A stretch of DNA of 64,000 nt from Protonemura montana (Eukaryota; Arthropoda; Insecta; Plecoptera; Nemouridae). The translations under genes and the position numbers were made by a program. The notes under the pieces were generated by a model. It saw only the letters and a list, made by a program, of their open reading frames with translations. It searched no databases and was not told the origin of the DNA. This document shows positions 12,723-37,156 of this stretch, piece after piece. How positions within the stretch are numbered: the first letter of the stretch is position 1; every line of letters starts with the position of its first letter. The stretch lies in the NCBI GenBank assembly GCA_947568835.1, contig OX387605.1:23749775-23813774 (forward strand), in the 5' to 3' direction.

Positions 12723-14459
12723 CACGGCCCCGCCGCCCCCTCCCGCCCCTCCCGTCGCAAGCTCGCGGACTATCAGCGACTGGCGCGATACCCTACCAGC
12801 GCGCAGTTCCCTGCAGAGCAGTGAACATGGCTCCCGGAAAAACCCCCTCGGAAAACCTTCGGAAAACCCTTCGGAATCCTTTTTGCGGAGTCAAGTTGAC
12901 TTGAGCCTTTTTTTGACTGAAAGTGGCGTGACGAGCGACTCATAATGGCTAGCGGTTCGTGGTGCCGAAGTTTATGGCTGAGAAAAGTGCTTGGATCCTT
13001 TGGAGTTTGGGCAAAATCCGTGTCATTTTAGAACCGAAAGTGGCTCAAAGAATTGACAAGCTTGCAGTGATGTCTTTCAAGTGTTGCAGCAATACTTTTC
13101 TTCTGCACTTGTAAAACTCTTAAGGGAGGGACAACCTTTACTAAGAGTCAATGGTCATATGAAGTGCATCTAAATGATGTAGCAACAAGTGATGTATTGT
13201 GTAAAAACATAACCTTGATATTGTTGTTTAGTCTTTCAATCCACACATTTGACACTGACCAAAAATCAACAAATCTCTCTGGGATTTCACACAATGATTC
13301 CTCAAATGCAGACTTGTGAGACTCTCTGTGCCCTTTTCGGTCCGTTGGTTTCACGTCCATCGAAAACTCCGCGCGCCGAATTCCTCGGCAGGCCTTTTGC
13401 TTCATCGTCGGGGACAACCGAAAAGCAGCAAACAGCGTCGCCAGACAGGCGAAGCATCCTCCAAAACTATATCGGAAGGACCAAAGTGGGAAGAAACTGC
13501 CTTCAGGCCTAGAACGTGTTGTCGCAAAATTAACACGTCTCCCGCACGCTCAAAAGTCACGTTGCCGAGTCATTGGTGACACACTGCGTGGCAAACGGCA
13601 TGGGAGTATCAGTCATCGACAACGATCTTAATTCTGAGTGTTTTAGTCTCATTCAGAGCTGACGATATCGGTTGTAGCCCCTTTTTCGATGAGGGACGTG
13701 CCTGACTTGTTCCCGGCGTCTTGTGGAAATGTTCGGGGGCAGGCGAGGCATGTCCCCGTTGCAAGCTCGAGCTGTTCAGACAGTAACACGGTCTATGTTT
13801 CGGTAGATTTTGTTAGGTTACCAAAAATTTACAAACTCGAGTCGAAACATTTGGAGACGGGAGACAAAGTTATCGATAAATTATGCATATCTCTTAGTCG
13901 CGAGTGAATGAGCAATGCATTAATAAAGAGCAAGTGACAATTTGTAGAAAGTATCGTGCACCATATCACGCCAAATGCCAATAAGAAATGAATGAACTAC
14001 AAGTGCACTTGCGTCACTTATCCAAGAAGGCCGTCGAAGAACACGTGCTCGTAGAGTAGTTCTATTTTCTAGCCAGCCGATATGACACTCGGAGATTTTC
14101 TAACAAAAAATATTCTGCGATTGCGCTGGCGTCCTGAATGTGCCATCGATTGGGTGGCTGATCATAAGTTCCATTCATTCATCAATTAACTAGGTACTAA
14201 AACAAATACTAAGTGTAACTAATTTTCATCGGTTTTATTACAATTGCTGTGTATGTTTATATAGGACCGTGCAGGATGTAATGATAATTTAGTATTTAAA
14301 CGTGTACCTTTACCTATACCGTGTCACAATATGGATGTTAACTTTATAATGATATAGACACATTGATACAATAGTTTTTTGTATTTAATTTTTATTGTCA
14401 GTGGAATAGATCTGATCATTTATTGTAATATATGATCATTGATCCGAATGGAAAATAAA
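12723..14459 (+). other. Dystroglycan 3' UTR and poly(A) signals
   Basis: No further coding sequence follows the TAA at 12720-12722. The first 230 bp are C-rich, then the sequence becomes AT-rich. Two AATAAA signals on the + strand (about 13921 and 14454-14459) are candidate 3' ends; the second lies within 100 bp of the stop codon of the convergent lysozyme gene A. I see no other gene in this stretch. Confidence 0.5.
14419..14424 (-). terminator. Poly(A) signal of lysozyme gene A
   Basis: AATAAA on the minus strand, 130 bp beyond the TGA at 14554-14556. It lies upstream (in + coordinates) of the + strand AATAAA at 14454, so the two convergent transcripts should overlap at their ends. Confidence 0.5.
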
Positions 14460-14553
14460 GTTAGGACAATTTTCAAGAATCTTCAAGCCTCATGACAGTT
14501 CTTGGTTCACCAACAGGAAGGACATATCCACAACTGTCTGTAACTTGTGCCGC

Positions 14554-17500
14554 TCAGAAACAGAAAGACATGTCAGGGACTCCGTTTTGGCATTTGTTCT
14601 TCCAGCCGTTCCATCCCTGGAACCCGTGGATGCTGAAGATGTACTTGGTGCACTCAACGTCATTGCCGATGTCGTCGTCGATCAACTCTGCCGGAAACAA
14701 AAAACGCCTTTAGTTGAGTTAATTTCGTTCTTTTTTGCAGGTGTTTCAGTCTGGTGCACGAACCTCCACATCGCAGATTGCATTCCTTTCCGGGAAAGTC
14801 GGCATTGTTACACCAATATCCATCGTTGATCTAGAAAACAAGGTGGCAGGAAATATATTTGAGAGGCAAGAATATTAATACTGAAGATGTATAGCGGGGG
14901 GAATGTTCTTCAAAATATTTCAGATTTCGCTTCCAGAACGAAGAAGTGTATGCATTGCATCGTCTTTAAAAATATTCTGGAAAATTGAGTGCTTCTGACA
15001 ACAATTGAGACTTTTTAAACATGGGTAGTAGGTACCTGGAACAACCCCCAGTCGTAGGTGTTGTCAGTGTTGGGCCCGCCTACCGCCGCAGTGTTGAAGG
15101 AACTCTCTGCGTTCACCAGGCAGATCCCTGCAACAGCACGGTCGTCAACCCCAGCAACGTGGTAGGTCTAAACTTATAGGGATATTTCTATAGTGTATCG
15201 AATTTTATATAGATTTAGCATTGGAACGTGTTTCTTTACGAGTCATTAGAGGTGAAACCAGCACACTAAGATTTTTTTTTATGGTCACATCTCCGACTTT
15301 TTTGCAGAATTATAGAATTTGTTACTCAAACAACCAACTAGTGGTAACACTAGTAACAATACAATACACAATACACTTTTCACCATCGAAATCGTACCGC
15401 GTAGCAACGGAATAATTAGTAGCGTGGCAACGGGAATCTAAATTTTATTTCAACCTTTAGCTCTGAATTTCCGTTGCTACGCTACCAAAAGGCTGGCAAA
15501 AAGATCTTTTCTAGGTATTGAAATATTGTTGAAATCAATTCAAATCTACACACCACTCTTAACTGTCACCTAACACATGGCAGCTACAGCCTACAGGAAA
15601 CAAAGGACAGAATGCGACTTATTATCATTCAATAGTTCAGACAATTTTCTAAAAGTTATTTTTTTTTGATTTTCGATAAAATAAATATTAGAGGCGTTAG
15701 AGGGGTTGGCGTTTTTAATGCTCTCCATAAGACCAATGTTAAATTACGCAAAATGGCAAATGTGTAACAACCCCTACAGCCTACAGGAAACAAAGGACAG
15801 AATGCGACTTATTATCATTCAATAGTTCAGACAATTTTCTAAAAGTACTTTTTTTTTATTTTCGATAAAATAAATATTGGAGGCGTTAGAGGGGTTGGCG
15901 TTTTTAATGCTCTCCATAAGACCAATGTTAAATTACGCAAAATGGCAAATGTGTAACAACCCCTACAGCCTACAGGAAACAAAGGACAGAATGTGGTTTA
16001 TTATCATTCAATAGTTCGGATAATTCTCTAGAAGTACTTTATTTTTTTATTTTTGATAAACTAAATATTGGAGGCGTGAGAGGAGGCGGCGTTTTTGGCA
16101 CTCGTCATTAGACTAATGGAAAAAATATATATATATATCGCAAGATGACACTTCCATCCCAATCTGTTAAGTCCTTCAGCATGTAAATTAGATCTGAAAA
16201 CACAACCCAAATAAAGAGAGATGTAAAACTTGCAAGTGAAGTATGGTCAGTACTGTAGTTGACCTACGTGGCTACGCGGTAGTTGAACGTAGTCACGCTT
16301 AAATATCGGCCGTATCAATAAGATACAGCTACACCCGGTTTTTATTAAATACGTAAGGGTCCATTGATTTTTTCAATATTTTTTTAGTGGGAATTCAAGT
16401 GACTGATTTTGACCCGCGAGGGGTGTCAACAGGGGTAGAATTTCAAGGAGAGTTGAATGCAACCCCCTGTTTGAACCTGCGATGGAAACTGACCACGTTT
16501 TTTTTTTATTTCCTTTTGAGAATTCCCCGAGTTCCTCGACTCCCAACGCCTGGACTGTAGACATGATGTCAGCGCACACGTGTACGATGGGTGGCCTACC
16601 CATCAGGATTTACTGCTAGATGTGATTTATGTATATCATGAAAGTGGAACGGACGAGAAACGGGGTCGGGTTCGTATCCCGCTTGGTGAACTATTTTTAA
16701 CTAAGAAACAATCACCTACCAAGATTGTTAGAATATTGTCTTGCAACTCTCGCCGGTCTTCGTAGCGTCCATTCGGCGGCGAGTGAAGATCGCTCTCGTG
16801 CTCAGCGCCAGGATGCAGAGGGTCGCTGGTTCGAAGCAGGTAAGTCACATGTGTGTAAAACTGCTGGATATGTATTAATCTTTACAGAGACAACTTGCAT
16901 CTCTTCTCGATGGTGTACCGTGATCCCCGCCAGCTGCTATTCAAGTACAAGGTAGTCACTCCACAAGTAGCATTACGGAGATGTTACTTTACCAGCAGGC
17001 GCCTTCCAACAGGCCTGGGTTCGAATCCTGACTGGTCCGCGTTTTTTTTCTTCATCAAGTGGCGAATCATTAAAACTCTCATAGTATTATTTTCATTGCC
17101 CTGAAGTCGGCTCCTGCAATTTTCCAGGACGGGTTAGTTCCAGCCTGGCTACCAGGTAGCGCCGACATCGACGTCACAGATCATGTTTTGAAAATGAAAT
17201 TAATTGATGATTTGTTCTCAGCTGATGATGACGTCAGCGAAGACTCGCGGCTGTCAGTTCGAGAAACAAATTGCAGAATAAATTGGCTACATATGCAACA
17301 GGTGATCATTCGATTGGTGGCCAAGTTGGTAAAGTCGTTGCGTTCCATCGAGAGGAGCCTGGATTCGCTTCCCGGTGACGGAGTACTTTTTTCTTTTGGA
17401 AAAAATGCTAATCGTGATCTATTAAGCAACTGTGTTGCTAAGACATATTTAAAATGTAAGAATTATTGATGTAAATATCTTCCTTGGTTGCTAAACAATA

Positions 17501-20500
17501 AACAGATCGGTTGCATTAGCTTCCTTATGTACTTGTGCATGTATTATCATACTCGAATTAGAACACGCCGTGGCTCTGTGGATAGCGAGCTCACATGCGA
17601 TGTGAACAGCTTGCGTTCGGTTCCCAGCCGGGTAGCATTTTGGCTACGTCAAGCTCGAGTCGCTCTGGTGGCAAATCGTCGAACTAAGTTGCTGTGAGTG
17701 CCAGATTCTGCCGACAGGTTGCGCTGCTCTTAGCACGACTGCGCGTTCGGTGAAACCTTACAGATAAGAGTCATATTTCAAATCTCTGTCAGTGTGGGCG
17801 TTTCCCTCCATGCAGCTGATGTCTGTGTGGTGAAGTGCAGTGATGTGCTTCGCTGCTGACGTCAGCGGCAAGATTCGTATCACCGGTCAAAGGCTGGGAC
17901 TCAAATGAGTCGGCCAATGCGACCAGTTCGAATCCCGTCCATTGTTTGGACGCATGGTTGTGTTAAATGGCAGTTGGTTCATCCATGGCGAAATATTCAG
18001 GATGAATTAACTGATCAAGACTTGGGAAATATTTCCGATGATGGGCATCCATATTTGATGAAGTCTACTGGGGCATTCAAAATATATTTTGATTGAAAAT
18101 CATCGATGCATTGGTCGAGATTTGTTGGGAACAATCGCCGTTGTTCAACAGCTTATGTATCCCAAATAACGCAGAGACTGTATAGCGGCTCGAATGGTCG
18201 AGCGGTTAGAGTGACTGTCTACCAACATACAGGTACCGAGTTCGCTCCTCGTCACCTGCAGACTTTTTGTTCATCAATCCACACCAGCCTACATTCTCCA
18301 GCACAAAATTCGTTTTCAGAAAATTTTCTAGGAAGGTTTTCCGCGAAGCTCCCAGCTGGCGCCATTATCAACGTGACATTTCAAGATTTGAATATTTTCG
18401 TTTCCATTCCCGGCGGCAATTCTCATCGATCGACGAAAAGAAGAAATTGAAGCTGCTTAAGGCGTGACGTCATTTGTCAAGTGCATTTGTAAATCAAATG
18501 CATCTTGATATTCGTCAGATGCACCTGGCATCTTCACCAATCCCTGCACCGAGTGCAAAGAGAGGGAAGAGTCCGTGCAAGACTGGACCCAGCCAGAGCC
18601 TCCAGCGATGAGTGGGAGTAGCAATTAGCCACTCCAAGAAAAAGAGCTTCCATCGCTTGCCAAAATCCGACGTGGATCAGCAAGACAATGGAGGCCGACT
18701 GGTGCGGGACCAGTAAATTTTTCATGCACTCGACCCCCTAGACATGTACCAAGTATCACCGAACCAGCACTAGAGTGTGCTTTTTTGATGTTAGCGCTAC
18801 CTGTTGGGCATCAAACGAACTTGTTCAATTAGTATTGGGTCGGTTAAAGGTGACTACTTGGTCGGCTGTCGCAGACTGATATTGTCACGTACCAATTAGT
18901 AGGCAAAATATTCAGCGAGGAACAAATGCTTGATGGCCAAGTTGTTTGAGTCGTCGCTTCTCAATGCAGTGGGTCTGCGTTCGCATCCCGGTGCAGGAGC
19001 CTTTTTTGGTTTTGGAATTATTACAAACCGTGGTCCTGTAGGCGACTAACTGTTGCTTAGACATATATGAATTGTAAGAAATTATGTTGTGAATATCTTC
19101 CTTGATTGCTAAGTATCGAGCAGATCGGTTGCATTAGCTTCCTTATGTACTTTTGCCTAAATTAACACACCAATCATAGAAGAACCCGTGGCCCTGCGGT
19201 TAGCGAGCTTGCTAGTAATGCGAACGGGTTGCGTTCGATTCCCGGCCCCGTAGCTTTTTGGCTATGTCGAGCTCGAGTCGCTCTGGTGGCAAATCGTCGA
19301 ACTAAGTTGCTGTGAGTGCCAGATTCTGCCGACAGGTTGCGCTGCTCTTAGCACGACTGCGCGTTCGGTGAAACCTTACAGATAAGAGTCATATTTCAAA
19401 TCTCTGTCAGTGTGGGCGTTTCCCTCCATGCAGCTGATGTCTGTGTGGTGAAGTGCAGTGATGTGCTTCGCTGCTGACGTCAGCGGCAAGATTCGTATCA
19501 CCGGTCAAAGGCTGGGACTCAAATGAGTCGGCCAATGCGACCAGTTCGAATCCCGTCCATTGTTTGGACGCATGGTTGTGTTAAATGGCAGTTGGTTCAT
19601 CCATGGCGAAATATTCAGGATGAATTAACTGATCAAGACTTGGGAAATATTTCCGATGATGGGCATCCATATTTGATGAAGTCTACTGGGGCATTCAAAA
19701 TATATTTTGATTGAAAATCATCGATGCATTGGTCGAGATTTGTTGGGAACAATCGCCGTTGTTCAACAGCTTATGTATCCCAAATAACGCAGAGACTGTA
19801 TAGCGGCTCGAATGGTCGAGCGGTTAGAGTGACTGTCTACCAACATACAGGTACCGAGTTCGCTCCTCGTCACCTGCAGACTTTTTGTTCATCAATCCAC
19901 ACCAGCCTACATTCTCCAGCACAAAATTCGTTTTCAGAAAATTTTCTAGGAAGGTTTTCCGCGAAGCTCCCAGCTGGCGCCATTATCAACGTGACATTTC
20001 AAGATTTGAATATTTTCGTTTCCATTCCCGGCGGCAATTCTCATCGATCGACGAAAAGAAGAAATTGAAGCTGCTTAAGGCGTGACGTCATTTGTCAAGT
20101 GCATTTGTAAATCAAATGCATCTGACGGGAAGAGTCCGTGCAAGACTGGACCCAGCCAGAGCCTCCAGCGATGAGTGGGAGTAGCAATTAGCCACTCCAA
20201 GAAAAAGAGCTTCCATCGCTTGCCAAAATCCGACGTGGATCAGCAAGACAATGGAGGCCGACTGGTGCGGGACCAGTAAATTTTTCATGCACTCGACCCC
20301 CTAGACATGTACCAAGTATCACCGAACCAGCACTAGAGTGTGCTTTTTTGATGTTAGCGCTACCTGTTGGGCATCAAACGAACTTGTTCAATTAGTATTG
20401 GGTCGGTTAAAGGTGACTACTTGGTCGGCTGTCGCAGACTGATATTGTCACGTACCAATTAGTAGGCAAAATATTCAGCGAGGAACAAATGCTTGATGGC

Positions 20501-23500
20501 CAAGTTGTTTGAGTCGTCGCTTCTCAATGCAGTGGGTCTGCGTTCGCATCCCGGTGCAGGAGCCTTTTTTGGTTTTGGAATTATTACAAACCGTGGTCCT
20601 GTAGGCGACTAACTGTTGCTTAGACATATATGAATTGTAAGATATTATGTTGTGAATATCTTCCTTGATTGCTAAGTATCGAGCAGATCGGTTGCATTAG
20701 CTTCCTTATGTACTTTTGCCTAAATTAACACACCAATCATAGAAGAACCCGTGGCCCTGCGGTTAGCGAGCTTGCTAGTAATGCGAACAGGTTGCGTTCG
20801 ATTCCCGGCCCCGTAGCTTTTTGGCTATGTCGAGCTCGAGTCGCTCTGGTGGCAAATCGTCGAACTAAGTTGCTGTGAGTGCCAGATTCTGCCGACAGGT
20901 TGCGCTGCTCTTAGCACGACTGCGCGTTCGGTGAAACCTTACAGATAAGAGTCATATTTCAAATCTCTGTCAGTGTGGGCGTTTCCCTCCATGCAGCTGA
21001 TGTCTGTGTGGTGAAGTGCAGTGATGTGCTTCGCTGCTGACGTCAGCGGCAAGATTCGTATCACCGGTCAAAGGCTGGGACTCAAATGAGTCGGCCAATG
21101 CGACCAGTTCGAATCCCGTCCATTGTTTGGACGCATGGTTGTGTTAAATGGCAGTTGGTTCATCCATGGCGAAATATTCAGGATGAATTAACTGATCAAG
21201 ACTTGGGAAATATTTCCGATGATGGGCATCCATATTTGATGAAGTCTACTGGGGCATTCAAAATATATTTTGATTGAAAATCATCGATGCATTGGTCGAG
21301 ATTTGTTGGGAACAATCGCCGTTGTTCAACAGCTTATGTATCCCAAATAACGCAGAGACTGTATAGCGGCTCGAATGGTCGAGCGGTTAGAGTGACTGTC
21401 TACCAACATACAGGTACCGAGTTCGCTCCTCGTCACCTGCAGACTTTTTGTTCATCAATCCACACCAGCCTACATTCTCCAGCACAAAATTCGTTTTCAG
21501 AAAATTTTCTAGGAAGGTTTTCCGCGAAGCTCCCAGCTGGCGCCATTATCAACGTGACATTTCAAGATTTGAATATTTTCGTTTCCATTCCCGGCGGCAA
21601 TTCTCATCGATCGACGAAAAGAAGAAATTGAAGCTGCTTAAGGCGTGACGTCATTTGTCAAGTGCATTTGTAAATCAAATGCATCTTGATATTCGTCAGA
21701 TGCACCTGGCATCTTCACCAATCCCTGCACCGAGTGCAAAGAGAGGGAAGAGTCCGTGCAAGACTGGACCCAGCCAGAGCCTCCAGCGATGAGTGGGAGT
21801 AGCAATTAGCCACTCCAAGAAAAAGAGCTTCCATCGCTTGCCAAAATCCGACGTGGATCAGCAAGACAATGGAGGCCGACTGGTGCGGGACCAGTAAATT
21901 TTTCATGCACTCGACCCCCTAGACATGTACCAAGTATCACCGAACCAGCACTAGAGTGTGCTTTTTTGATGTTAGCGCTACCTGTTGGGCATCAAACGAA
22001 CTTGTTCAATTAGTATTGGGTCGGTTAAAGGTGACTACTTGGTCGGCTGTCGCAGACTGATATTGTCACGTACCAATTAGTAGGCAAAATATTCAGCGAG
22101 GAACAAATGCTTGATGGCCAAGTTGTTTGAGTCGTCGCTTCTCAATGCAGTGGGTCTGCGTTCGCATCCCGGTGCAGGAGCCTTTTTTGGTTTTGGAATT
22201 ATTACAAACCGTGGTCCTGTAGGCGACTAACTGTTGCTTAGACATATATGAATTGTAAGAAATTATGTTGTGAATATCTTCCTTGATTGCTAAGTATCGA
22301 GCAGATCGGTTGCATTAGCTTCCTTATGTACTTTTGCCTAAATTAACACACCAATCATAGAAGAACCCGTGGCCCTGCGGTTAGCGAGCTTGCTAGTAAT
22401 GCGAACGGGTTGCGTTCGATTCCCGGCCCCGTAGCTTTTTGGCTATGTCGAGCTCGAGTCGCTCTGGTGGCAAATCGTCGAACTAAGTTGCTGTGAGTGC
22501 CAGATTCTGCCGACAGGTTGCGCTGCTCTTAGCACGACTGCGCGTTCGGTGAAACCTTACAGATAAGAGTCATATTTCAAATCTCTGTCTGTGTGGGAGT
22601 TTCCCTCCATGCAGCTGATGTCTGTGTGGTGAAGTGCAGTGATTTGCTTCACTGCTGACGTCAGCGGCAAGGTTCGTGTCACGGGGCAAAGGCTGGGACT
22701 CAAATGAGTCGGCCAATGCGACCAGTTCGAATCCCGTCCATTATTTGGATGCATGGTTGTGTTGGATGACAATTTGTTCATCCATGGCGAAATATTCAGG
22801 ATGAATTAACTTATCAAGACTTGGGAAATATTTCCGATGATGGGCATCCATATTTGATGAAGTCTTCTGATGCATTCAAAATATATTTTGATTAAAATTC
22901 ATCGATGCAGTGGCTGACGATTTTTTCGGATTCTTAGTTGCTGTCGTCAAAGTTCAACAGTTTATATCTTCCAAAAAACAACTCTATATCATAGCGGCTT
23001 GAGTGGTCGAGCGGATAGAGTGACTGACTGACGTGGTGAAGGTACCGAGTTCGATTCTCGTCGTGGTCTACTTTTTGTTTATACTTTTGCTTCCCACAAT
23101 CATTTTTATCTTTCAACGATTTTTTTTTTTTATTTTCAAAAATTTTTCCCAGATCTGGTCGACGTCCCAGTCGAAAGGAGTTTGAAAAATTTATTTTCGA
23201 TTGCAGATTTGAGTACAGTTGGTGATGACGTCATTGCCTCGCTCGAGGCGTCATCTTGAGGCTAGGCTATTACAGCCCAAGGCACTGTGTCACAAATACT
23301 TGACATGTTACGTCAGATACACATGACATCTTCACAAATCCCTGCACTGAGCGCAAGAGAGGGAAGAGTCCGTGCAAGACTGGACCCAGCCTCCAGCGAT
23401 GAGTGGGAGTAGCAATTAGCCACTCCAAGAAAAAGAGCTTCCATCGCTTGCCAAAATCCGACGTGGATCAGCAAGACAATGGAGGCCGACTGGTGCGGGA

Positions 23501-24392
23501 CCAGTAAATTTTTCATGCACTCGACCCCCTAGACATGTACCAAGTATCACCGAACCAGCACTAGAGTGTGCTTTTTTGATGTTAGCGCTACCTGTTGGGC
23601 ATCAAACGAACTTGTTCAATTAGTATTGGGTCGGTTACAGGTGACTACTTGGTCGGCTGTCGCAGACTGATATTGTCACGTACCAATTAGTAGGCAAAAT
23701 ATTCAGCGAAGAACAATTGCTTGATGGCCAAGTTGTTTGAGTCGTCGCTTCTCAATGCAGTGGGTCTGCGTTCGCATCCCGGTGCAGGAGCCTTTTTTGG
23801 TTTTGGAATTATTACAAACCGTGGTCCTGTAGGCGACTAACTGTTGCTTAGACATATATGAATTGTAAGAAATTATGTTGTGAATATCTTCCTTGATTGC
23901 TAAGTATCGAGCAGATCGGTTGCATTAGCTTCCTTATGTACTTTTGCCTAAATTAACACACCAATCATAGAAGAGCCCGTGGCCCTGCGGTTAGCGAGCT
24001 TGCTAGTAATGCGAACAAGTAAGAGTAACAGATCTGCAGTTTTCAGCGTTCAAAAGAATTTTAAGAACTCATTCGACAGCAGTCTCAACATTTTGGAATA
24101 ACACTTGCAAATTGTAAGATACGCTTTTTCTATCTGTTTTTTTAAAACAACTAGGTACATCAAAAATCTTTACCCTCAAAAACTATCAAAATTTTGCGGA
24201 AATGTTGATCGTTGGCAATCCAGGAGAAAAAGTAGATATCTGTGGCTTACAGTCGTTGATCTGGTCCCGAGGCATGCCGCGGTCAACGAGCTCCCTGGCG
24301 AGGTCACAGTCGTTGTAGATGCGCCCCATAACGGGACACCCCGCAATTACAACAAACGCTAGCGCCGCCGCGAAGAACTGGAATCCGTTCAT
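14554..24392 (-). CDS. c-type lysozyme, gene A, with a ~9.1-kb first intron
   Basis: Secreted muramidase that cleaves the peptidoglycan MurNAc-GlcNAc bond. Exons on the minus strand: 24392-24251, 15127-15036, 14830-14764, 14687-14554 (435 nt, 144 aa). The signal peptide is about 20 residues. Eight cysteines occupy the family positions. The catalytic Glu lies in the CLVNAESS stretch and the catalytic Asp in TYDWGLFQ, so the enzyme should be active. Exon lengths and phases match genes B-D (142/92/67/134 nt). A TATAAA lies 48 bp above the ATG. Odd points: intron 1 holds the tandem array described below, where the paralogues have 0.2-0.45 kb; and the third donor (GTTCGT) is weak. Pairing exon 1 with these distant exons is inferred from strand, order, phase and the absence of any other partner for either part. 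Confidence 0.75.
15584..16115. repeat. ~190-bp tandem repeat, three copies
   Basis: Units begin with CTACAGCCTACAGGAAAC at 15584, 15774 and 15963, so the period is 190 then 189 bp. The first two copies are almost identical; the third is diverged and runs into a TA-rich tract near 16125-16138. The repeat lies in intron 1 of lysozyme gene A and is unrelated in sequence to the 1.6-kb array. Confidence 0.9.
16640..17050 (+). repeat. tRNA-like relics upstream of the 1.6-kb array
   Basis: Two B-box-like motifs are followed closely by T-runs: GGGTTCGTATCCC at 16668-16680 with T5 at 16693, and GGGTTCGAATCC at 17017-17028 with T8 at 17042. These match pol III internal promoter elements and terminators. 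I could not fold a full cloverleaf, so they are not called as functional tRNA genes. They resemble the modules inside the neighbouring array. Confidence 0.5.
17300..17679 (+). repeat. Diverged partial copy of the array unit
   Basis: This is recognisably related to the end of the 1.6-kb unit but with many substitutions. It has an A-box-like TGGCCAAGTTGG at 17318, a B-box-like GGATTCGCTTCCC at 17361-17373 and T6 at 17387. It then shows the shared stretch around 'GATCGGTTGCATTAGCTTCC', and a second module with GTTCGGTTCC at 17614-17623 followed by TTTT. It marks the older left edge of the array. Confidence 0.7.
17680..19297 (+). repeat. 1.6-kb array unit, copy 1 (1618 bp)
   Basis: The unit is measured from the anchor CGAACTAAGTTGCTGTGAGT. 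It contains four tRNA-like modules on the + strand: (a) B-box GTTCGAATCC at 17926-17935; (b) A-box TGGTCGAGCGG at 18195, B-box GAGTTCGCTCC at 18239 and T5 at 18264-18268; (c) A-box TGGCCAAGTTG at 18934, B-box GTTCGCATCC at 18979 and T6 at 19002; (d) GTGGCCCTGCGGT at 19188, B-box GTTCGATTCC at 19233 and T5 at 19255. Small open frames here are repeated with the unit and show no protein similarity. Confidence 0.95.
19298..20860 (+). repeat. 1.6-kb array unit, copy 2 (1563 bp)
   Basis: Nearly identical to copy 1 over its length, but it lacks about 55 bp just after 'AAATCAAATGCATCT' near 20124. The four modules lie at 19544, 19813-19886, 20497-20570 and 20752-20822. The B-box regions and T-runs are unchanged. 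Only scattered single-base differences are visible, for example GATATTATG near 20641. Confidence 0.95.
20861..22478 (+). repeat. 1.6-kb array unit, copy 3 (1618 bp)
   Basis: Full length like copy 1, so the deletion in copy 2 is private to it. The modules lie at 21107, 21376-21449, 22115-22188 and 22370-22440, each with boxes and, for three of them, T-runs intact. Confidence 0.95.
22479..24016 (+). repeat. 1.6-kb array unit, copy 4, diverged and truncated
   Basis: The ends resemble copies 1-3, but the middle (about 22880-23340) is clearly diverged. Its module b has a more canonical B-box: A-box TGGTCGAGCGG at 23003, B-box GAGTTCGATTC at 23047-23057 and T5 at 23072. Module c is kept (23725-23798). 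Module d breaks off after GCGAAC near 24016, before its B-box, which defines the right edge of the array 235 bp from lysozyme exon 1. Confidence 0.9.
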
Positions 24393-24439
24393 GGCTAGAT
24401 CGTCGAGACTCTCACTAAACCGAAGACGCTGTTCGTAGC

Positions 24440-24445
24440 TTTATA
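24440..24445 (-). promoter_or_regulatory. TATA box of lysozyme gene A
   Basis: TATAAA on the minus strand, 48 bp above the ATG at 24392. The same arrangement is found at genes B and D, which supports 24392 as the start of a real transcription unit. Confidence 0.7.
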
Positions 24446-24764
24446 CCTTGACCATAATTGCATTCAAAGAAGACACTCAAGCCGTTTTTTTTTTTTTTTA
24501 GTGGGACTCGGGTACTTATTACAATTACGTTTAATTAGAGCTACAAGTGTTTGTCTCTGATTAGAAACTCATTTTAATCTCAAACATTCTCGATTTTCAT
24601 TCCATCTGGTTAAAAGTTGTGATTAAGATTGTTATCATGTCACAACAATTCAGATTGATTATTCTGCATTATTATCGTTTTGCGCTAATATGATCGAAAA
24701 ACAATATTGAAACATCGTGTTTACACATAGAAATAGTTATTCCCGATATGCCACTAAATTGAGC

Positions 24765-27188
24765 CTACGGAAAGCAGCCGGAGACGTCAGGCAAAGCGTC
24801 CTGACACTTGTTGGTCCAGCCATGCCAGGCGTTGAATCCTTCGACGGCGAAGATGATGTTCACGCAGCCGACATCGTCGGTGATGTCGTCGTCCACCAGA
24901 TCTGTGGGCCGAAATCATTAGTTCTCTCTGGTAGCACAGCCTATAAGCCAAAACTGGTCACACTTCGGGTGCGATTGCTCAGTGCAGGCTAGACATTGAA
25001 TGTGAAGGTACTCGGGTAATTGTTGAGCGTACCGTGCGAAGCGAAATCTTCAATTTCACGTACCCCAGGAAAAAAAACACGTCTGTATGTGTGTGTTATT
25101 TTATTTTGTTCATTGTTTATTTTGTGGTCGCGAGGTGCGCGGTCCATGTGCGTGGTGTACCGAGATCGAATCCCGCCGCTTCCTTAAAACGAATGCCTCA
25201 TGTCGTTCTTAATTAACTTTCATCCCTAGCAATTATTATATGTAAAAGAATACACGCTTAGGTCAGCAACCGAAGTGGTCGTAGGGTGAGGCTATGCGTC
25301 CCAGTTGCAGTAGGTCCCGACGTCTAATCCCGCGTGAGCACTGTATTTTTTTATTGCAAACACATGGCTTATGTTGAAAGACGGTTCATGTCTTGAACAT
25401 TTTCTTTTTGATGATATTTTAGTTCGAATTTTTGCCCCACATTTATATCCACTGGGCCCGTTGCCAAAACGTAGCGTCGTTAGACACCGCAAATCAAATA
25501 AAAGCAGCTGCAGCAACTTGTGGAGTATAAGCGTACCGCGGGGCTGTCTACCAGCAAGACAGACAGTGGCTCGGTCTGAAATGCCGGCTGAAAATGGTCT
25601 TAAGCAAGACCGAAAAGTGTCTTTTGCCTTTCCGCCATCGATCAACCAATGCTCGGCTCTAATTGGCAGACGGGTTTCCGAAGTTCATCAATGTGATAAG
25701 AGCCATGTCTGGCAGTGCCGGCCGATTACCAAAAAAGGTTTTGATTTAAGACGATTGTAGACTGAAATAGCTTACAAGCGTTGAGTTCTTATAATTTATT
25801 TTTTCTTTGGAAAGGAGTACCTTTCATGCTTCTTTTGGTATCATATATTCAGTGATTTTTGTTTGAATTTGTAGAAACCTTGTCATGGAGATTGACTTGG
25901 AATTACGAAAATATGATACAAATTCTGAACATTTTTGCTGTCATGAAAACTTTATAAACTCCGAAAAGTTCATTTATTAAACAAGAAAATGTTTGTAAAT
26001 TTTAAATATTTCCACAGCTATTCGACTGATTTTTTTAAAACAGCAGCAGGTCTAAGTTACAAACACACAAATGTGCTCAGCAAATTCCGTTCAAATCAAA
26101 TCATGCGCTTGGCCGCTAGAGCGCAAACATACACGCACATAGAATTGTGTGTGTAGCATGAGAGACACCTGTTCCAAAATAAAATTCATGAATAAAGAAC
26201 AAAAAAAAACAACGCTCATCTAAATTCCAACTCAAATTTCCCAGCGAAGCCCTAGTGCCGTCAACAGAACAGACGCATGGGGGTCATTGCGAGGAAACCA
26301 CCTTAGCATATTATGTTGGTCTACTGTCTTTGTTTCGTAGGTAAGAATACACGACAAGCTTGGTTTGTCAGATCTGACTTACTGTTACACAAGATTGTGC
26401 AGTTCCTCCCAGGAGTTTCAGATGTGCTGCACCAGATGCCGTCATTGATCTGAAAATGAAAGTTGAATTTGTCAGCTACATCAAAGGGTTGATCTATAAA
26501 CCTAATTAGCCTATAAGCATATGAGCCTAAAAAATTGGCTTGATTCGGAACTGTTTCTTCAGTGTACTACACAAAGTATTGTTGAAGCCAGCAATCTTCC
26601 ATCAATTTTCCTTCTTCGCATACCTAGCCGTGAACTCAGCTATTCATCGTCAAGACCCAGTAGGTGGGTGAAAAGCGTTTCAAAGAAAATAGGCCTCTCA
26701 TTGTGAAAACAGTTTCGAAGCACGTTAAGTTGTATACGGCTCCTGCGGGTACCTGGAAAAGCCCCCAGTCGTAGCTTCCGTTCGAGTTGGGACCGCCGAC
26801 CGCCGACGAGTTTCGTGAGCTCTCCGCTTCAACCAAGCACACCCCTGGAAGAAACCAGAAGTGCATGTTCACAAAGCAAGCGTACACCATAAAGCTGATT
26901 AGATTTACGATTAGGTTCCGATAACCATAACATGTTAAATGAATTGAATTTGTAACTGTGGAAATGTGTGAGATAAGTTTCAAACGAAAATATCACTTGG
27001 CACTTTCGGCGTGAACGCCAGGAGTCCCGTTCCTGGGCATGCTTACAGTCTCCCATCTGCGCCTTGGGCAGACCGAGTCGCACCAGCTCGACGGCCAGCT
27101 CGCAGCGCGAGAAGACACGTGCGTTGGCGGGCGCTGCCAGCGCAGACAACGCAGCCAGTAGCAGGGCAGCGAGTTTCAGAGAAGTCAT
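24765..27188 (-). CDS. c-type lysozyme, gene B
   Basis: Secreted muramidase. Exons on the minus strand: 27188-27047, 26844-26753, 26449-26383, 24901-24765 (438 nt, 145 aa). The signal peptide is Ala/Leu-rich and ends near ANA-R. The catalytic Glu lies in CLVEAESS and the catalytic Asp in SYDWGLFQ; eight family cysteines are present. The last exon is one codon longer than in the paralogues (ends GCFP). Splice phases are 1, 0, 1 as in the other copies. Intron 3 (1.48 kb) is long and contains tRNA-like debris near 25100-25340. Exon 1 is very similar to that of gene C, so B and C are recent duplicates at least there. Confidence 0.95.
25100..25345 (+). repeat. tRNA-like relics in intron 3 of lysozyme gene B
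   Basis: Two tRNA-like stretches: one with TGGTCGCGAGGTGCGCGG and ATCGAATCCCGCCGC (about 25119-25180), and one with 'GTGGTCGTAGGGTGAGG', 'CGTCTAATCCCGCG' and T7 near 25347. They resemble the modules of the 1.6-kb array without being copies of any one of them. Confidence 0.45.
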
Positions 27189-27228
27189 TACTTGGAGTCA
27201 ACTGTCAGGCAAGATCACTAACGCAGCA

Positions 27229-27234
27229 TTTATA
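27229..27234 (-). promoter_or_regulatory. TATA box of lysozyme gene B
   Basis: TATAAA on the minus strand, 41 bp above the start codon at 27188. Confidence 0.7.
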
Positions 27235-28154
27235 ACAAAGTTTAGCTCATTTCAGACTTTTGTCTTCATCGCGCGATATCGACTGTCTTTGTTTGGGATT
27301 TAAAATAATCAGTCCGAAAATGCAGTGTGCAGATATGAGATGGTATAAGTCCAAATTATTATTAGTCAAGTAACTTCACTTCAAGGTCATATTATAGACA
27401 TCATATCGCATGACAGGATTTTTATTATCATCTAAAATTAAAAAATTGGCTTAAATTACCCAATTTTACACATACAATTTTTATACAATTACTGCAGCAA
27501 CATAGTTATTAGAAAGCCTGAATTACAAAATGTCAAAACCATATCCACTCGCTTTTGAAAAATGTGCGACCACCGGATGACCTTCGATGAATATGCTAAC
27601 GATCTTGTCGCGTTATCGTAATCTATCAAATGGCTAACTCAAGAATCACACCCAATGTCAAGTTGGTGATATCAATTGCATTACTGTCCTCCACTTATCT
27701 ATGCTATTATTAAAAGATTCAAATGTGCGCAAAGTCAGTTATCGGATGGATCACCAACGACCATCATGAGGAGTTTAATGTGCTTGAAGTGATGCAAAAC
27801 AACAACACTCTCCAATTGCTTATCGATATCTGGACAGAATGGATTAATAGGGAAATCCTGCACGCGTTGCATCGTCCTTCGGAAGGGCGTTAAGCAGACG
27901 ATAGCCGTGGTACCCTTCGAAAGAAACAGGCTACGTGGCTACTCCCATTTTGGCCCGTTTCGGGTTTCCTGTCTTTCCTTTTTACGCTAGGTTATATTTG
28001 CTCGAAACTCAAACAACTTGGCTCGGTTCCTAGAAAGGAGATAAACTCATTATTTCTCCCGTGCATTTTCAGCATGACTTGCCGGCCGACTACAACCCAC
28101 TGAGGATAACAGGTTTAGATAAAGTCCTAAGTAATATAACTGATTTTTGAACGA

Positions 28155-28160
28155 TTTATT
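28155..28160 (-). terminator. Poly(A) signal of lysozyme gene C
   Basis: AATAAA on the minus strand, 70 bp beyond the TAG at 28230-28232. Confidence 0.55.
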
Positions 28161-28229
28161 TACAAAACATTTTGATACAAAAGAAACTGGCAACGCGAGT
28201 AGATGCCTAGGACGCGGCGAGCCAAGGAA

Positions 28230-30077
28230 CTAGAAGCAGCCCGAAACATCGGGCAGTGCCCCTTGGCACTTGTTGGTCCATCCGTGCCAGGCGTCAAACC
28301 CGTGGCGTCGGTAGATGAGGTTCACGCAAGCGACGTCGTCCGTGATATCGTTGTCGATCAGATCTGCACAGGATCAAAGTCTAGTGTTACAATAGGTAGT
28401 TGTTCCAGTGAGCCGCATGTAACGTTAGAGCTAACATGGATTTCTAGGATTTTAAGCACAAATAACGCGCTGATTAGATTGACGTCCCCTGCTAAGGGAT
28501 AGTATTGCACGGACTTATTTTAGCGCCAAACTTTCGGTATCTCTATCGGATTTCGCAACACAGTTGTGAGGGACAGTAGTAAACCAAGTCCTATGGTAGT
28601 CTGGTAAGATTTAAAACTTGGCAATTCGTTTTGATGGCATCACTGAACAGTTACTTTTAGTTTTGACCTCAAACTCCCACTAAACGCGTCACAGACTTGA
28701 CAAATCGATCAATTATTGTCAGGTCTAAACGTTCTTTTTTAATCATCGTATAGGTACTGCTCTACTACGAACGATCCAATGGTTCCAGCCCGACGAGAGC
28801 CAACTCGATGTTTCGGTTGATAATTAGCTTTGAATGCGTCGCCTTGCGTTTCCCGTCTACGAGCAAGTACCACCCTGCAAATACTGGACAGTGGCGTCCT
28901 CGACTTACCGTCGCACCGGATGTTGCAATCCTTGCCAGCGGTGGTGGTCGTCGAGCACCAGAAGCCGTCGTTGATCTGCGAAAAGATGCGATGGTCACAC
29001 TGATGATTCAAACCTTCCAACGTAAGCGTGGTAATTTGCCGGCTAAGACATCGTCACCACGGCGTACGATGTTTAGCATCCAAAGACAAAATAATATGAC
29101 TGGCAGCAAGGGATTTCTACATCAAGACTTTCGAAGGCTGTGCATTTTGTAATTACAGGGATCTCGAAGGCTGTGCCTTATGTAATTACAGGGATAAGAC
29201 AACGGTTGAATTCCTCCGCCTTCCCAAACTATTTCCAGCCTACTAACTTGACAAAAGTGTCAATGTAAAATGTAAGGTTAGGTTAGTGGCAAGTTGATGT
29301 TGTCAAATAAATCAACCAATTCAAACGAGTTATTTGGCGGTAGTTGTCTTAATAGTTAAATAGTTAAAGCATAGAACCACACAACTATTTGCAATTAAAA
29401 TAATATTTCCCAATATGAGTACATTGTGATTGTTTTTATAAGATTAGTGGTATTACAAAACGTAGTAAGAATTAGAGCAAGAGTACTTCCAGGTAGAAAC
29501 CAGCTGCTCCTTTGTCCGGATATGAACTTACCTGGAAGAGTCCCCAGTCGAAGCTTCCGTTGGAGTTAGGACCGCCGACTGCCGAAGAGTCGCGTGCACT
29601 CTCTGCCTCCACCAAACACACCCCTGAGGAAAAATCAGCGTGCCGTGAGGATCTCCTATTTTTCTGACACCTTACACGACAACGTTTTCTTTGTTCTGGG
29701 TTGCAACTAACCCAGCATTAGCCTGATATTACGGTAAAGCCTGGGACCTCCTGAATTCGATCTACGACTGGCCATGTAAATAGAATCGGTAGATGCTAGT
29801 TACTGGTGCAATATAAGATATCAACGTGAAGCCCTTTGTTCGATACTATTCATGGAGTTATGCACATTTTCTGAAATCTGAATTGAAATTGATGTAGGTA
29901 CTGTGTGTGTATTGTTTGTCCCTGCCCTTGCTTACAGTCTCCCATCTGCGCCTTGGGCAGACCGAGTCGCACCAGCTCGACGGCCAGCTCGCAGCGCGTG
30001 AAGACACGTGCGTTGGCGGGCGCTGCCAGCGCAGCCAGCGCAACCAGTAGAAGAGCAGCGAGTTTCAAGGAAGCCAT
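28230..30077 (-). CDS. c-type lysozyme, gene C
   Basis: Secreted muramidase. Exons on the minus strand: 30077-29936, 29623-29532, 28975-28909, 28363-28230 (435 nt, 144 aa). Signal peptide residues 1-22 end at ANA-R. The catalytic Glu is in CLVEAESA and the catalytic Asp in SFDWGLFQ. Eight cysteines are present. Exon 3 carries the INDGFWC motif followed by a Thr-rich loop shared with gene D but not with A or B. Exon 1 is nearly the same as in gene B while exons 3-4 are closer to D, which may mean gene conversion. Confidence 0.95.
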
Positions 30078-30120
30078 GTCTGGAGCAGAGAACCAACTGT
30101 CTTGCGTCGAGACGTGCAGT

Positions 30121-30130
30121 GCCTTTTAAA
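30121..30130 (-). promoter_or_regulatory. TATA-like element of lysozyme gene C
   Basis: TTTAAAAGG on the minus strand, about 45 bp above the start codon at 30077. It lies where genes A, B and D have TATAAA, so it is a probable diverged TATA box. Confidence 0.5.
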
Positions 30131-31572
30131 GGAACCCAGGGTGGCTAGTTAAGTTGTACCACCTGCGTTTGATTATGTAAATCCAATGTGAGGCTTGGGG
30201 AGGAATCTGATGAAGATAGCAGGAGAGGTATTATCACCAAGTCGATCAAAGTCGCGAGATGAAAATGGATCGAACAACAAGGCTGAATATTTCGAGATTA
30301 AAATCTGTAAAGATAACAGATAAATAAAGGTGATGATAAATGCAGTACCTACAGCAAAAAGTTTGTTTATTTGAAATAAAACACAGTAATTTCACCGCCG
30401 TCAACCGTGGAAGTAGAACCCATTTATGATTCCTGCTAACCACAATCTATTGTGTCAGCTGATTCTGTTATTCTAGTCGCGTTTGCTATACTACACATCT
30501 CTCTTCGCCCGATTTTTCAAAAACTACAACTTTTCTAGTTCAAATTGTAGTTGAAGTAGTTCAATTGAAACAATTGCCATTGTGACTTCCAACCATCTGC
30601 AGGGAAATTCAGACGTGTGCGTCGATTAAAAGCTCAACTGGAGCTCAGTCCAATTTTAAGGCTCTCGTACGAATTTCGTTGCAGTAGCTCTTATGGCAAA
30701 AAATAGTAGATGGCGTCGAAATGGCGAACACATCCACACTCCTCTTCAAGGTCATCACATTTCTAGAATTCGTGGGATCTTCTTCTTGACCTTGAGCTGC
30801 AGAAGAATGAGCGTGAGGCTGAGCTGTCATGTCCAAGTTATCAGCCTCTTTACTAAGATAAGCTGATGATGATTAATTAATTATCAGTGTGATCGTATGC
30901 CCTTGATACAGGTCTTTATCATTGGTTGTAGACAAGCACTTGAACAATACAACCGTAGAATTTGTGTCTTGTACTACGTGATGAAGTTTACAAATCGCAA
31001 TCGTAATGCACTCTCTGTAATTCTGTACATGGCGAGGGGCAGGGCACAACGGTGCCTCAGGTGCCGGTCTGACGGTACCTACCACAAAATTGGCTCGAAT
31101 GCATTAGACTAGACAATTGGTACCATTTGCATGCTGAGAAGTCGAGAGATTACTTGTGTGCACCAAGCCAAGCGCTCTTAACATACTGCCTTGAGATAAA
31201 ATAACCTGCTTCGGTCCAAATCAAGCAAACTGACACAAGCCATGCGGACTTCTTTGGAACATGAAACAACTAGAAGAATGTTTCAAATGCAATCATTTTT
31301 GTGTACACATACCATCCTACCTTCTCTTCCCTCCCCTCCCACGGTTTCACTGAGAACCTCTGGGGTGTGAATTTGAAATTAGGTCCAATGCCAACTCATT
31401 AAAGCCCCTTAAGATGTGAGACTTATCTCAGTTCTCTCAGATTCAGTTTTATTTGAAATGCTTCATTAATTTCATTTGACAGTGGTTTTACTTCAAATAT
31501 CGCAATTTCACCAATTTTAATCACAGTTCAACAGAAAGCCTCTGGGTCTTCACTAACTTAGTTAGAAGGGTG

Positions 31573-31590
31573 GGAAGGAAGGAAGGAAGG
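31573..31590. repeat. GGAA microsatellite between lysozyme genes C and D
   Basis: Short run of GGAA units. The rest of 30140-31660 is AT-rich intergenic sequence in which I see no gene. Confidence 0.8.
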
Positions 31591-31661
31591 TTACATAGAA
31601 CCAAACCAAGAAAGCGTAGGAGTAACTCGGAGACTCTTAATTAAGTAGAAAAATCACCAGG

Positions 31662-31667
31662 TTTATT
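31662..31667 (-). terminator. Candidate poly(A) signal of lysozyme gene D
   Basis: AATAAA on the minus strand about 240 bp beyond the TAA at 31906-31908. Confidence 0.4.
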
Positions 31668-31905
31668 CACATCCCAGACAGTTTCTCATGATACGAGCTA
31701 GGAGCGTCCTTATGATCAATATATTTGAAAAAAGTCAGCCCTGCCGGTCTCTCGCTCTGCCACGTAGTCTGGAATGTCATGCAGACATCCCAGGTAGTAC
31801 CGAGCGAGTGCGTCAACCCTACGTTTCCCATGGCCGAGCAAGGAACTCGATGACAAAATTGCCGGCGTCAGCAAGGGAAGATGGCCGCGCAGAGACGTCA
31901 GTCGC

Positions 31906-33559
31906 TTAGAAGCAGGAGGAGACGTCGGGGAGGGTGCCCTGGCACTTGCTCTGCCATCCGTACCACGCCTCGAATCCGTGGCGAGCGTAGATCAGCTTGG
32001 CGCACTTGACGTCGTCGGCGATGGCGGCGTCGATCAGCGCTGCGGATAGTAAACCATAGATTGCACATTTAAGTAAACAGACTCATTGGGCATGTGTGCG
32101 CTGGACTGCTCGGTCAAACCATTTTCTCAGCGAGAGGTTGAGATTTTTGTTAAGGAGACGTTCAATCATACGCAAATCAATATGTCAAATGTTTTAAATG
32201 TTTGCAAATTCAAATATTTTTGTCAGTTTTTTTCAACTAAGAGCTGAAAATTTTGGTGAAAACCGTAGCTAAGTTACGACCGGCCACTAAGGCTAAGTGC
32301 TAATCATGTGTTGGTCGCGTTCGTGGCGAGCGACCATGATTATTTCTGTGTGCACAAAAGTAAGTAACAATATTCGCTGATGGACGGGGAATTTGTTAAA
32401 AAAAAGGGAAATATAAGGTTGCAATATATTCATGATTTGCAATGAGAATTTGTTATCATAATTTGCAAAGGAAAGGCTGTGAGAGACCATCGGGTGTCAG
32501 CGAAAGCGTCCAGCATTTAGGATGAATTGAGATGCCCAAGGAGTTTGTAACGGGGATTAGGACGAGTCGTATCACGGTTTATGATGGCATTGTGTACTCA
32601 CAGGCGCATCGCACGTTGCAGTCCTTGCCAGCAGTGGTGGTGGTGCTGCACCAGAAGCCGTCGTTCACCTGCACAACAACAAGCCAAGGACGCTTAGCAT
32701 AGCTTACAACTCATCTAACAAACCTCTGACCTACAAGATGTAGAAGAGCACCAAAGAGTACTCGCAAAACACTAACACTACACTCTTATGCTACTTAGAT
32801 TCGAAGAGAGTATTAAAAACTTTTCAGATAATGTATTTGAATAATAAATAGTCAAGAGGTCACTAATTTCATTCGCAGTTACCTGGAAGAGACCCCAGTC
32901 GTAGCTTCCGTTGGAGTTGGGTCCGCCCTTAGCGGCGGTGTTTCGCGAGCTCTCCGACTCCACCAGACACACCCCTAAACAACCAGGACATCAGCATCCC
33001 GCTCTTCAGAGTACAACTACCATCAATCCCATCTTCCATCAGCCATGTCACACACGACCACATGCTTTTTCTAAAATTGTATCATTGTTTCTTATTTTCT
33101 TTCGAACAGTAACATGGGAAATGATGTTAACTCTAAGCCATAGTGCAATTCACTCCTTGTATCTTCAAGTGTAGATGACTTCAATTTTTTGAGATTGACA
33201 TTTTTTGACAGATCTGTTTTACTAAATTAATTAGTTTTAAATGCATTCGACTTTCAAGTCTTCACCAGTACAGAAATGGCTAGCATAGTCTAGGTAAGGT
33301 TCTTAGTTTTTTCCACAACGTTTCAGGTAGTTACTTTCCCAAGTCTAAACATGAAATTGACCCGAGTACACCGAGCGCCAGTGGTGGCTCGTACAGAGCG
33401 AGATCGTGGCGTTAACTTACAATCATTGATCTGCGCTTTGGGAATCCCCTGGGCGACGAGCTCGACGGCGAGCTCGCAACGGGTGAACACCTTGCTGTAG
33501 GCGGGAGCCGCCAGCACCAGGAGCACGACGAACAGCGAGGCGAGGCGTTGAGAGGCCAT
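31906..33559 (-). CDS. c-type lysozyme, gene D
   Basis: Secreted muramidase. Exons on the minus strand: 33559-33421, 32974-32883, 32668-32602, 32039-31906 (432 nt, 143 aa). The signal peptide is about 21 residues and ends at AYS-K. The catalytic Glu is in CLVESESS and the catalytic Asp in SYDWGLFQ. Eight cysteines are present. Exon 3 begins VND rather than IND. It is the most compact copy, and with its complete exons and strong splice sites is probably expressed. Orthology to a named insect lysozyme cannot be settled from the sequence alone. Confidence 0.95.
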
Positions 33560-36241: not shown

Positions 36242-37156
36242 GCTATCTATTTACCCTACGTAAATCTCGAGCTCGTTGATGTTTTCTTGTATTTGTGAAA
36301 TGTCACGCTAATTTCTGGTCGGCCGCGAGCCTTACAACAGAATTATTTGTCAACCCAGCCAGGTAATACAAATTCCTCGCTCTCCAAGATGACATTCGCT
36401 TCGCAGGTCCGATTCAAACATTTAACAAAATGCTTTGTTATCAAACATTGACACATAACCGGAACGAACTGGATGTTAATCGACGACTCACTAACCAGGT
36501 AGGTATGGCGACGCAAGTAATTAATTCGAAGCAATACGAAGGTCAATCAACAAGGAACAAGCAGAACCTACCAATGCTTGTTCATGTGGATTATTTCACG
36601 GAGGACTGGGATATGAATCATTGTCTCAATTTTCAAATAATTCGAATTGTCGCATTTATATCAACCGAAAAAACATCGATTAATGTACCATAAATAACAA
36701 TTAAATAGTACGGTTACATTGTAAATCGGATATCGCGCGCACGTCGCCGTTGACTACCCTTTGACGAACTGCGTCGCAAAATGTTAGCAATGCTTGCTTG
36801 ATTGATTACTAGGGTTTACACAACCGACGCACTGTTTTGACATCTGGCCATGCGGCACTGGTCTAATGGCGTCGGCGAATGAGCGGATGATGATGAGGAT
36901 GATGATGAACCTAATGTAGTCTAGAATGGAGGAGCGGAAACTCGGTGCCGGCACGTGGCCTACTCCTGACGAATAGCACCAAGGGGACCACCGGTTTCAC
37001 GTCCCTTCCGAAAGACGGTACAATGCGAACAGCAGGATTCCTCCACAAATCCATGCTGTCGAGACTCGAGAGGTTGATAAGCAAAGCGAGTGAAGTTGCT
37101 GTACTGACATTCATCCCTCTAACCTCTCTCCCGAACAGAACTGGTCATTTGTATGA

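Follow-up and report, generated by a model that had tools for sequence, protein, structure and literature searches.

Can a single tandem repeat unit carry several different RNA polymerase III (pol III) modules, and do such modules still resemble promoters or only the relics of promoters? The question arises from a 64,000-nucleotide stretch of the genome of the plecopteran Protonemura montana (contig OX387605.1, positions 23,749,775 to 23,813,774; this whole stretch is referred to as the window), in which positions 17644-24019 form a tandem array of three full units of about 1.6 kb and a cut fourth. The original prediction for this DNA had described a 1.6-kb array whose unit packs four tRNA-like pol III modules, and the array itself is confirmed by the spacings at which unit segments recur. 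In each full unit, modules b, c and d present an A box, a B box and a run of five or six T residues (T5-T6) at tRNA-gene spacing on the plus strand, and across the genomic family the boxes and terminators vary two to three times less than the bases between them. With a confidence slightly above an even chance, the array is interpreted as a dispersed, block-copied composite tandem repeat whose modules may still be recognisable to the pol III machinery.

In this interpretation, modules b, c and d of a unit would derive from tRNA genes and module a would be the relic of a B box, all four lying on the same strand, and the parts retained would be those that transcription factor IIIC (TFIIIC) and pol III recognise. 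The modules would now be, or until recently have been, bound by TFIIIC and transcribed into non-tRNA RNAs of about 75-90 nt that end at the T-runs. Multi-unit blocks may have spread by segmental or mobile-element-like copying, with unequal crossing-over in place afterwards, by which the first-unit type of the window would have grown to three near-identical units.

Structure of the array and its modules

Reference segments of 300 bases repeat, start to start, at 1618, 1563, 1618 (1628 for the b segment) and 1610 bp. With unit boundaries placed directly after the T-run of module d, the three full units have a mutual identity of 99.6-99.9%; the fourth is diverged over about 22580-23350 and, by eye, is cut at about 24019 within module d.

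16335..17643, plus strand: left end of the block, with extra modules inside, common to most fetched arrays
17644..19261, plus strand: unit 1, bounded directly after the T-run of module d
19262..20824, plus strand: unit 2, 55 bp shorter
20825..22442, plus strand: unit 3, the reference unit of 1618 bp
22443..24019, plus strand: unit 4, by eye similar over about 22580-23350 to the later units found in other arrays, and truncated within module d

The joint score of a module combined an A box with a B box located 33-69 bases downstream of it and a run of four or more T residues soon after the B box; the threshold was 18, and the box weights were our own, set from the eukaryotic consensus. A and B boxes at tRNA spacing lie above this threshold in c, d, the diverged b copy of unit 4 (b2), the left-end module m3 and the left-end relative of d. 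Module b of units 1-3 (b1) and the left-end relative of c score below it, and module a combines a strong B box with a weak A box and has no terminator.

16968..17049, plus strand: left-end module m3; A box 16968, B box 17018-17028, T8 17042-17049; score 31.4, the highest in the window
17318..17392, plus strand: left-end relative of c; A box 17318, B box 17361-17372, T6 17387-17392; by eye, no joint-score match
17571..17641, plus strand: left-end relative of d; A box 17571, B box 17614-17624, T4 17638-17641; joint score
17884..17935, plus strand: module a of unit 1; B box 17925-17935, repeated at 19543, 21106 and 22724; weak A box
18195..18268, plus strand: module b of unit 1; A box 18195, B box 18238-18248, T5 18264-18268; by eye, below threshold
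18934..19007, plus strand: module c of unit 1; A box 18934, B box 18977-18988, T6 19002-19007; joint score
19189..19259, plus strand: module d of unit 1; A box 19189, B box 19231-19242, T5 19255-19259; joint score
19813..19886, plus strand: module b of unit 2; segment recurrence and T-run
20497..20570, plus strand: module c of unit 2; joint score and T-run
20752..20822, plus strand: module d of unit 2; joint score and T-run
21376..21449, plus strand: module b of unit 3; segment recurrence and T-run
22115..22188, plus strand: module c of unit 3; joint score and T-run
22370..22440, plus strand: module d of unit 3; joint score and T-run
23004..23076, plus strand: module b2 of unit 4; canonical boxes, A box 23004, B box 23048-23058, T5 23072-23076; score 27.2
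23725..23798, plus strand: module c of unit 4; joint score and T-run
23980..24019, plus strand: module d of unit 4; cut after the A box, without B box or terminator; by eye

The T-run begins 1-3 nt past the position of the tRNA 3' end in b, c, d and two left-end modules (by eye, with that position taken from tRNA numbering), so the modules look like whole tRNA genes and not like heads of short interspersed elements (SINEs) followed by a body. The claim of four modules per unit stands for b, c and d, each of which ends in T5-T6 as predicted, but not for a, with its weak A box and missing terminator. The more canonical B box noted in the diverged copy of b was recovered as well, b2 alone passing the threshold. 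The predicted interval, 17680-24016, covers a real array but stops short of the further modules to its left (16968-17049, 17318-17392 and 17571-17641).

Short boxes in an ordinary satellite could be matched by chance, and single B-box matches are indeed common, with 54 in the window against 35.65 expected; most of this difference comes from tandem copies. The excess over chance lies in the joint geometry of A box, B box and T-run, not in single B boxes. Within 16335-19262 (2.93 kb), four joint-score matches were found, all on the plus strand (m3, left-end d, a and c), whereas 100 dinucleotide shuffles of the same segment averaged 0.1 matches and never gave more than 1; module d (19232) lies too near the edge of this segment for scoring and was found, together with b2 (23048), in wider scans. 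The unshuffled whole window holds 19 joint-score matches, of which 14 fall in the array and its left end, all on the plus strand, and 5 elsewhere. Modules also align to host tRNA genes (see below), and chance, refuted for c and d though not for a, is a very improbable explanation of the array. To the right of the array, two more tRNA-like stretches with B-box-like sequence were seen by eye at 25164-25360 on the plus strand, one of them followed by T7; they give no joint-score match.

Distribution in the genome and mode of copying

The assembly searched comprises 258,480,905 bases in 34 contigs. A search with one unit gave at least 160 matches (25 of 163 candidates were scored), and the 1.6-kb family occupies at least about 40 separate loci, copied as blocks and locally expanded; these loci were typed from best-match lists, with neighbouring loci counted apart, several resting on one module match and the small contigs C8 and C10 dropped. 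A genome search for the unit and for its single modules had been suggested with the original prediction, and this number of loci is its outcome. Module searches add arrays, for example eight b matches about 1.6 kb apart at C5:11.08 Mb. Among the 40 matches listed per module, c and d lie in array loci and b in five single-match places as well, and no dispersed SINE parent is present among the matches listed.

Twenty loci were fetched, followed by two diverged ones. Left and right ends are common to most of the fetched arrays, and several arrays are cut. Mean identity across arrays is 92.4% among first units (182 pairs), 89.1% among later units (318 pairs) and 86.1% between first and later units (256 pairs), in a comparison that leaves out L024-L026 and counts the first units of L019, L020 and L023 as later, since no left end was seen there. 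First units are thus alike across arrays and unlike later units, which indicates that the arrays spread as blocks of several unit types. Some arrays, including that of the window, later expanded one unit type. The earlier suggestion that a composite of different tRNA-derived modules was amplified as one block is supported.

Despite the shared ends, the arrays pass gradually into other tandem repeats at either side. Terminal inverted repeats, as of a transposon, were considered: about 310 bp recur in inverted orientation at the two sides of L012, but most right ends have no such copy, and the arrays are not put forward as a transposon. The right copy in L009 matches the left ends of other arrays in inverted orientation. 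In one diverged array (L053, at C11:13.51 Mb), the units repeat in pairs of 3.2 kb and so form a higher-order repeat.

Relationship of the modules to tRNA genes

Comparison with host genes indicates that the modules are tRNA-derived, c and d scoring above shuffles and T-stem pairing being partly kept. In local alignments against 20 host tRNA genes, with the best of 100 shuffles as the reference, c scored 46 against 37 (tRNA-Ser) and d 45 against 40 (tRNA-Arg). A right-end c module of other arrays scored 45 against 36 (tRNA-Lys), left-end c 41 against 36 and left-end d 40 against 35. A whole-genome tRNA search gave 62 scored matches of 44.9-73.5 bits (from 63 of 23,590 first-look candidates), and all 20 of the matches fetched are ARAGORN tRNAs.

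Stem pairing was examined in distinct copies with placeable boxes (49 of 56 for b, 55 of 57 for c and 47 of 49 for d), with the pairing partner shifted by 1-3 bases as the control. Of five possible T-stem pairs, the mean is 3.61 in b, 4.07 in c and 3.91 in d, against 1.02-3.09 in the shifted controls; the B box overlaps the T-stem, so this pairing partly follows from box conservation. Acceptor pairing of b, at 3.84 of 7, is just over its shifted control (3.63).

The right-end c module, present in 17 of the 21 arrays examined and absent from the window, is a near-cloverleaf. Its acceptor pairs number 5/5 in 15 arrays and 4/5 in the other 2, and its T-stem, with a 7-nt loop, has 5/5 pairs in 8 of the 17 and at least 4/5 in 14. 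Internal c examples keep 4/5 acceptor pairs in three of four cases. Two ARAGORN calls were obtained in 26 fetched loci: the right-end c of L016 as a tRNA-Arg and, in L033, a tRNA-Ser that is not part of the array. Full cloverleaf folds had not been found in the original analysis, which agrees with the lack of any ARAGORN or Rfam call in the window's array but does not extend to other arrays, where the right-end c modules and the tRNA-Arg of L016 are cloverleaf relatives.

An array of working tRNA genes, as in Entamoeba, would likewise hold several modules per tandem unit, and one right-end copy does pass ARAGORN. However, none of the 62 scored tRNA matches falls at a listed 1.6-kb locus (compared by eye), and ARAGORN is silent in the window's array and made one array call in the 26 loci, so that this explanation is close to refuted.

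Conservation of boxes and terminators

The module alignments, which include the left-end relatives and both b types, comprise 62, 62 and 55 copies of b, c and d (56, 57 and 49 distinct) from up to 21 arrays. Mean site heterozygosity of boxes and T-runs, compared with that of inter-box bases, is 0.124 against 0.347 in b (p 6e-6), 0.159 against 0.326 in c (p 2.5e-4) and 0.108 against 0.321 in d (p 2.3e-6), and boxes are also more conserved than flanks in b (p 5e-4) and c (p 6e-4); sites and related sequences are not independent, so these p values overstate the differences. For m3, just nine near-identical copies are available, which are uninformative on constraint.

Complete units were aligned separately (39 units from 20 arrays, L021 giving none). 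Mean site heterozygosity is 0.134 overall and 0.092 in the boxes and T-runs of b, c and d, and after local detrending the box pattern stands out, with 0.2-0.4% of circular shifts as low. Of the 39 units, 36 at b, 39 at c and 38 at d carry a loose B-box core with T4 after it; the claim that boxes and T-runs are kept in all complete copies is thus largely correct and fails only for the remainder. Twelve diverged units were chosen by hand (pairwise identity down to 75%; three of the pairs each come from a single locus), and every one of them retains a run of at least four T residues at b, c and d. In one subfamily of diverged units, the sequence of the A box of d has changed without departing from the consensus.

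Alternatively, the modules may be neutral relics, that is, decayed SINE heads or tRNA pseudogenes in a satellite, with box conservation reflecting a young homogenised family. A number of results pull in this direction or otherwise speak against modules still recognisable to pol III. Beyond the absence of an ARAGORN call, no module of the window's array passes the Rfam tRNA model even at E 10, and the acceptor pairing of c (3.02 of 7) and d (2.62) is not above that of shifted controls (up to 4.11 and 4.51). Against host tRNAs, b1 (38 against 38), b2 (40 against 38) and m3 (39 against 38) are equal to shuffles or barely above them, and the tRNA derivation of b and m3 appears marginal. The closest host tRNA differs among c relatives, being Ser for c and Lys for right-end c, and so indicates no single parent. 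The boxes of d do not differ from their flanks (p 0.16), the variation around b stems partly from two alternating segment types, b1 and b2, and some diverged units have damaged boxes (the B box of b in L019 and L024, that of d in L024). The unit also contains two stretches, 1-400 and 870-1250, whose conservation equals or exceeds that of the boxes. The original prediction had named equal decay of the boxes and the rest of the unit as evidence against it: relative to inter-box bases no equal decay is seen, whereas relative to the whole unit the circular-shift test is not significant, since 22.6% of shifts give a value as low as that observed or lower.

Neutral decay nevertheless appears rather unlikely. 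It would not readily account for inter-box bases of the same modules diverging so much more than boxes and T-runs, nor for the survival of T-runs in every one of the chosen diverged units. Distinct modules all on one strand are unlike random SINE insertion, and by eye the modules terminate in T-runs where a tRNA 3' end would fall, without a SINE body behind them. Relic SINE heads, which the original prediction had offered as its conservative reading, fit module a and are probably too cautious for b, c and d.

It is also possible, if improbable, that the modules are TFIIIC landing sites of the extra-TFIIIC type, acting as chromatin boundary or clustering elements with incidental transcription. 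A and B boxes are kept in modules that tRNA finders miss, and papers treat TFIIIC at SINEs and domain borders (PMC3744447 and PMC4226948, in the portions available). Binding alone would have no need of T-runs, yet these are kept about as well as the boxes, and the 1.6-kb loci are not concentrated at chromosome ends (of the 40 listed, 11 lie in the outer 10% of chromosomes, p 0.24). The preferred interpretation remains that of modules which pol III may still recognise.

Conserved stretches between the modules

The unit stretches 1-400 and 870-1250 may hold something unrecognised. Coding was rejected for 1-430 and 870-1262, where stops occur in all six frames and no clear codon-position pattern is seen. 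Fold z-scores relative to shuffles are -4.2 for 1-430 and -3.5 for the 870 stretch, compared with -2.7 for a variable stretch; in 120-base windows both strands reach z below -4, so the fold signal is not strand-specific. In the alignment of 1-430 (15 rows, one of which, L025:2302-2734, is non-homologous), one hairpin arm varies and the other is nearly constant, and no compensatory changes were seen by eye. No conserved RNA structure is claimed for 1-430, the signal being on both strands and without compensation. Examples of these conserved folding non-coding stretches lie at 20825-21224 and 21694-22074 of the window, and a T6 run after a hairpin was noted by eye at 21962.

The palindromic TGACGTCA is found at unit position 214 in 39/39 units and is absent in L052. 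Within unit bases 700-900, TGACGTCA occurs in 28 of 40 rows (reference included) and is not at the aligned place in 11 other diverged units. Four TGACGTCA palindromes also lie within 90 bases at 41214-41296 of the window.

A more elaborate and doubtful proposal is that the unit is a mobile multi-gene cassette of pol III units, which would produce three short tRNA-like non-tRNA RNAs and one or two longer folding segments (1-430 and 870-1147), with promoters and terminators under selection for the copying of the element or for the host.

Comparison with known systems

Single-module pol III tandem repeats are already known, and the array described here is a multi-module variant. According to the available portions of PMC10702118, amphibian tRNA-derived pol III tandem repeats include OAX/satellite I (Xenopus), PolIII/TAN (the newt Cynops), Rana/polIII and Hy/polIII; PolIII/TAN is capable of in vitro transcription, and the tRNA origin of Hy/polIII is doubted. 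As in these repeats, each tandem unit here carries a tRNA-derived segment of pol III type (c and d, with b and m3 marginal). The amphibian repeats have one tRNA-like segment per unit of about 200-360 nt, longer in OAX (PMC10702118), whereas the 1.6-kb unit here has three different modules with terminators and a relic, block-copied with shared ends.

The same portions of PMC10702118 describe squamate SINE-derived satellites which, like the present array, consist of tandem tRNA-related sequence with distinct end and middle monomers; their monomers come from known SINE families, in contrast to the absence of a dispersed SINE parent among the matches listed here. The tRNA arrays of Entamoeba, from what is available of PMC2652664, have a similar unit size (up to 2364 bp) and several pol III genes per unit, and are homogenised within the array. 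Their modules are the organism's tRNA and 5S genes (PMC2652664), while those here are degenerate and the scored tRNA genes lie elsewhere. Among the papers listed, none describes an animal multi-module tRNA-like satellite in its title or the beginning of its abstract.

The promoter of Cassandra, a terminal-repeat retrotransposon in miniature (TRIM), is of the 5S type. Like the present array, Cassandra is non-coding, carries pol III promoter sequences and forms tandem arrays (PMC7215508, in the portions available). It is a derivative of a long terminal repeat (LTR) retrotransposon (PMC7215508), whereas here no LTR was noticed, no search for LTRs having been made.

If the modules are transcribed, the array would show that a tandem repeat can hold several pol III genes whose promoters and terminators are better preserved than the remainder of the tRNA-derived module. 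This would help to tell selection acting on promoters apart from selection acting on the RNAs, a distinction that can be tested by comparing the numerous diverged copies. More generally, tRNA-like matches in such genomes need to be read in the context of arrays.

Lysozyme context and neighbouring repeats

The first intron of a C-type lysozyme gene, which separates exons 1 and 2, appears to contain the array. The predicted antisense orientation agrees with this placement, the putative minus-strand exons (tblastn and by eye) flanking plus-strand modules.

24246..24392, minus strand: putative C-type lysozyme exon 1 (signal peptide); by eye, from the translation
15033..15125, minus strand: putative lysozyme exon 2; tblastn, E 0.006
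14768..14830, minus strand: putative lysozyme exon 3; tblastn, E 0.11

A cluster of C-type lysozyme genes, with several paralogous exons, extends over 24246-33493 on the minus strand. The window copy and a copy at C3:21.8 Mb (L014/L032) lie 2 Mb apart and have flanks that are 98-99% identical (window 13699-13972 and 14284-15398, including lysozyme exons 2 and 3); their arrays differ by about 5%. These shared flanks with lysozyme exons suggest that the two arrays probably arose from a duplication of the lysozyme gene and not from two insertions. A 189-bp tandem repeat of 2.7 copies (window 15584-16096) adjoins the left end of the array and is absent from the duplicate at C3:21.8 Mb.

To the left of one array is a 91-bp repeat (L031 3084-3901) that is 5S-like by eye, with no Rfam 5S match at E 5. 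Sequence derived from 5S rRNA is present in the window at 37129-37249 (minus strand, Rfam 46.7 bits) and in L033 at 2672-2787 (minus strand, 45.3 bits), and a 90-bp tandem repeat at 43708-43880 of the window (minus strand) gives a 5S score of 25.7 bits at 43730, below the Rfam cut-off. To the right of several arrays, a 9/18-bp minisatellite is followed by a 52-bp tandem repeat that is tRNA-like by eye. In L034 (1-3529) the latter has about 68 copies with an A-box-like core, and this array gave no ARAGORN call and no Rfam tRNA match at E 5. The 52-bp arrays show a strong subtelomeric bias: of 38 listed loci, 32 lie in the outer 10% of chromosomes (p 3e-17; best 40 of 4545 candidates). A fuller relative of the 52-bp repeat, in L033 at 1971-2043, scores above the Rfam tRNA cut-off with 30.6 bits.

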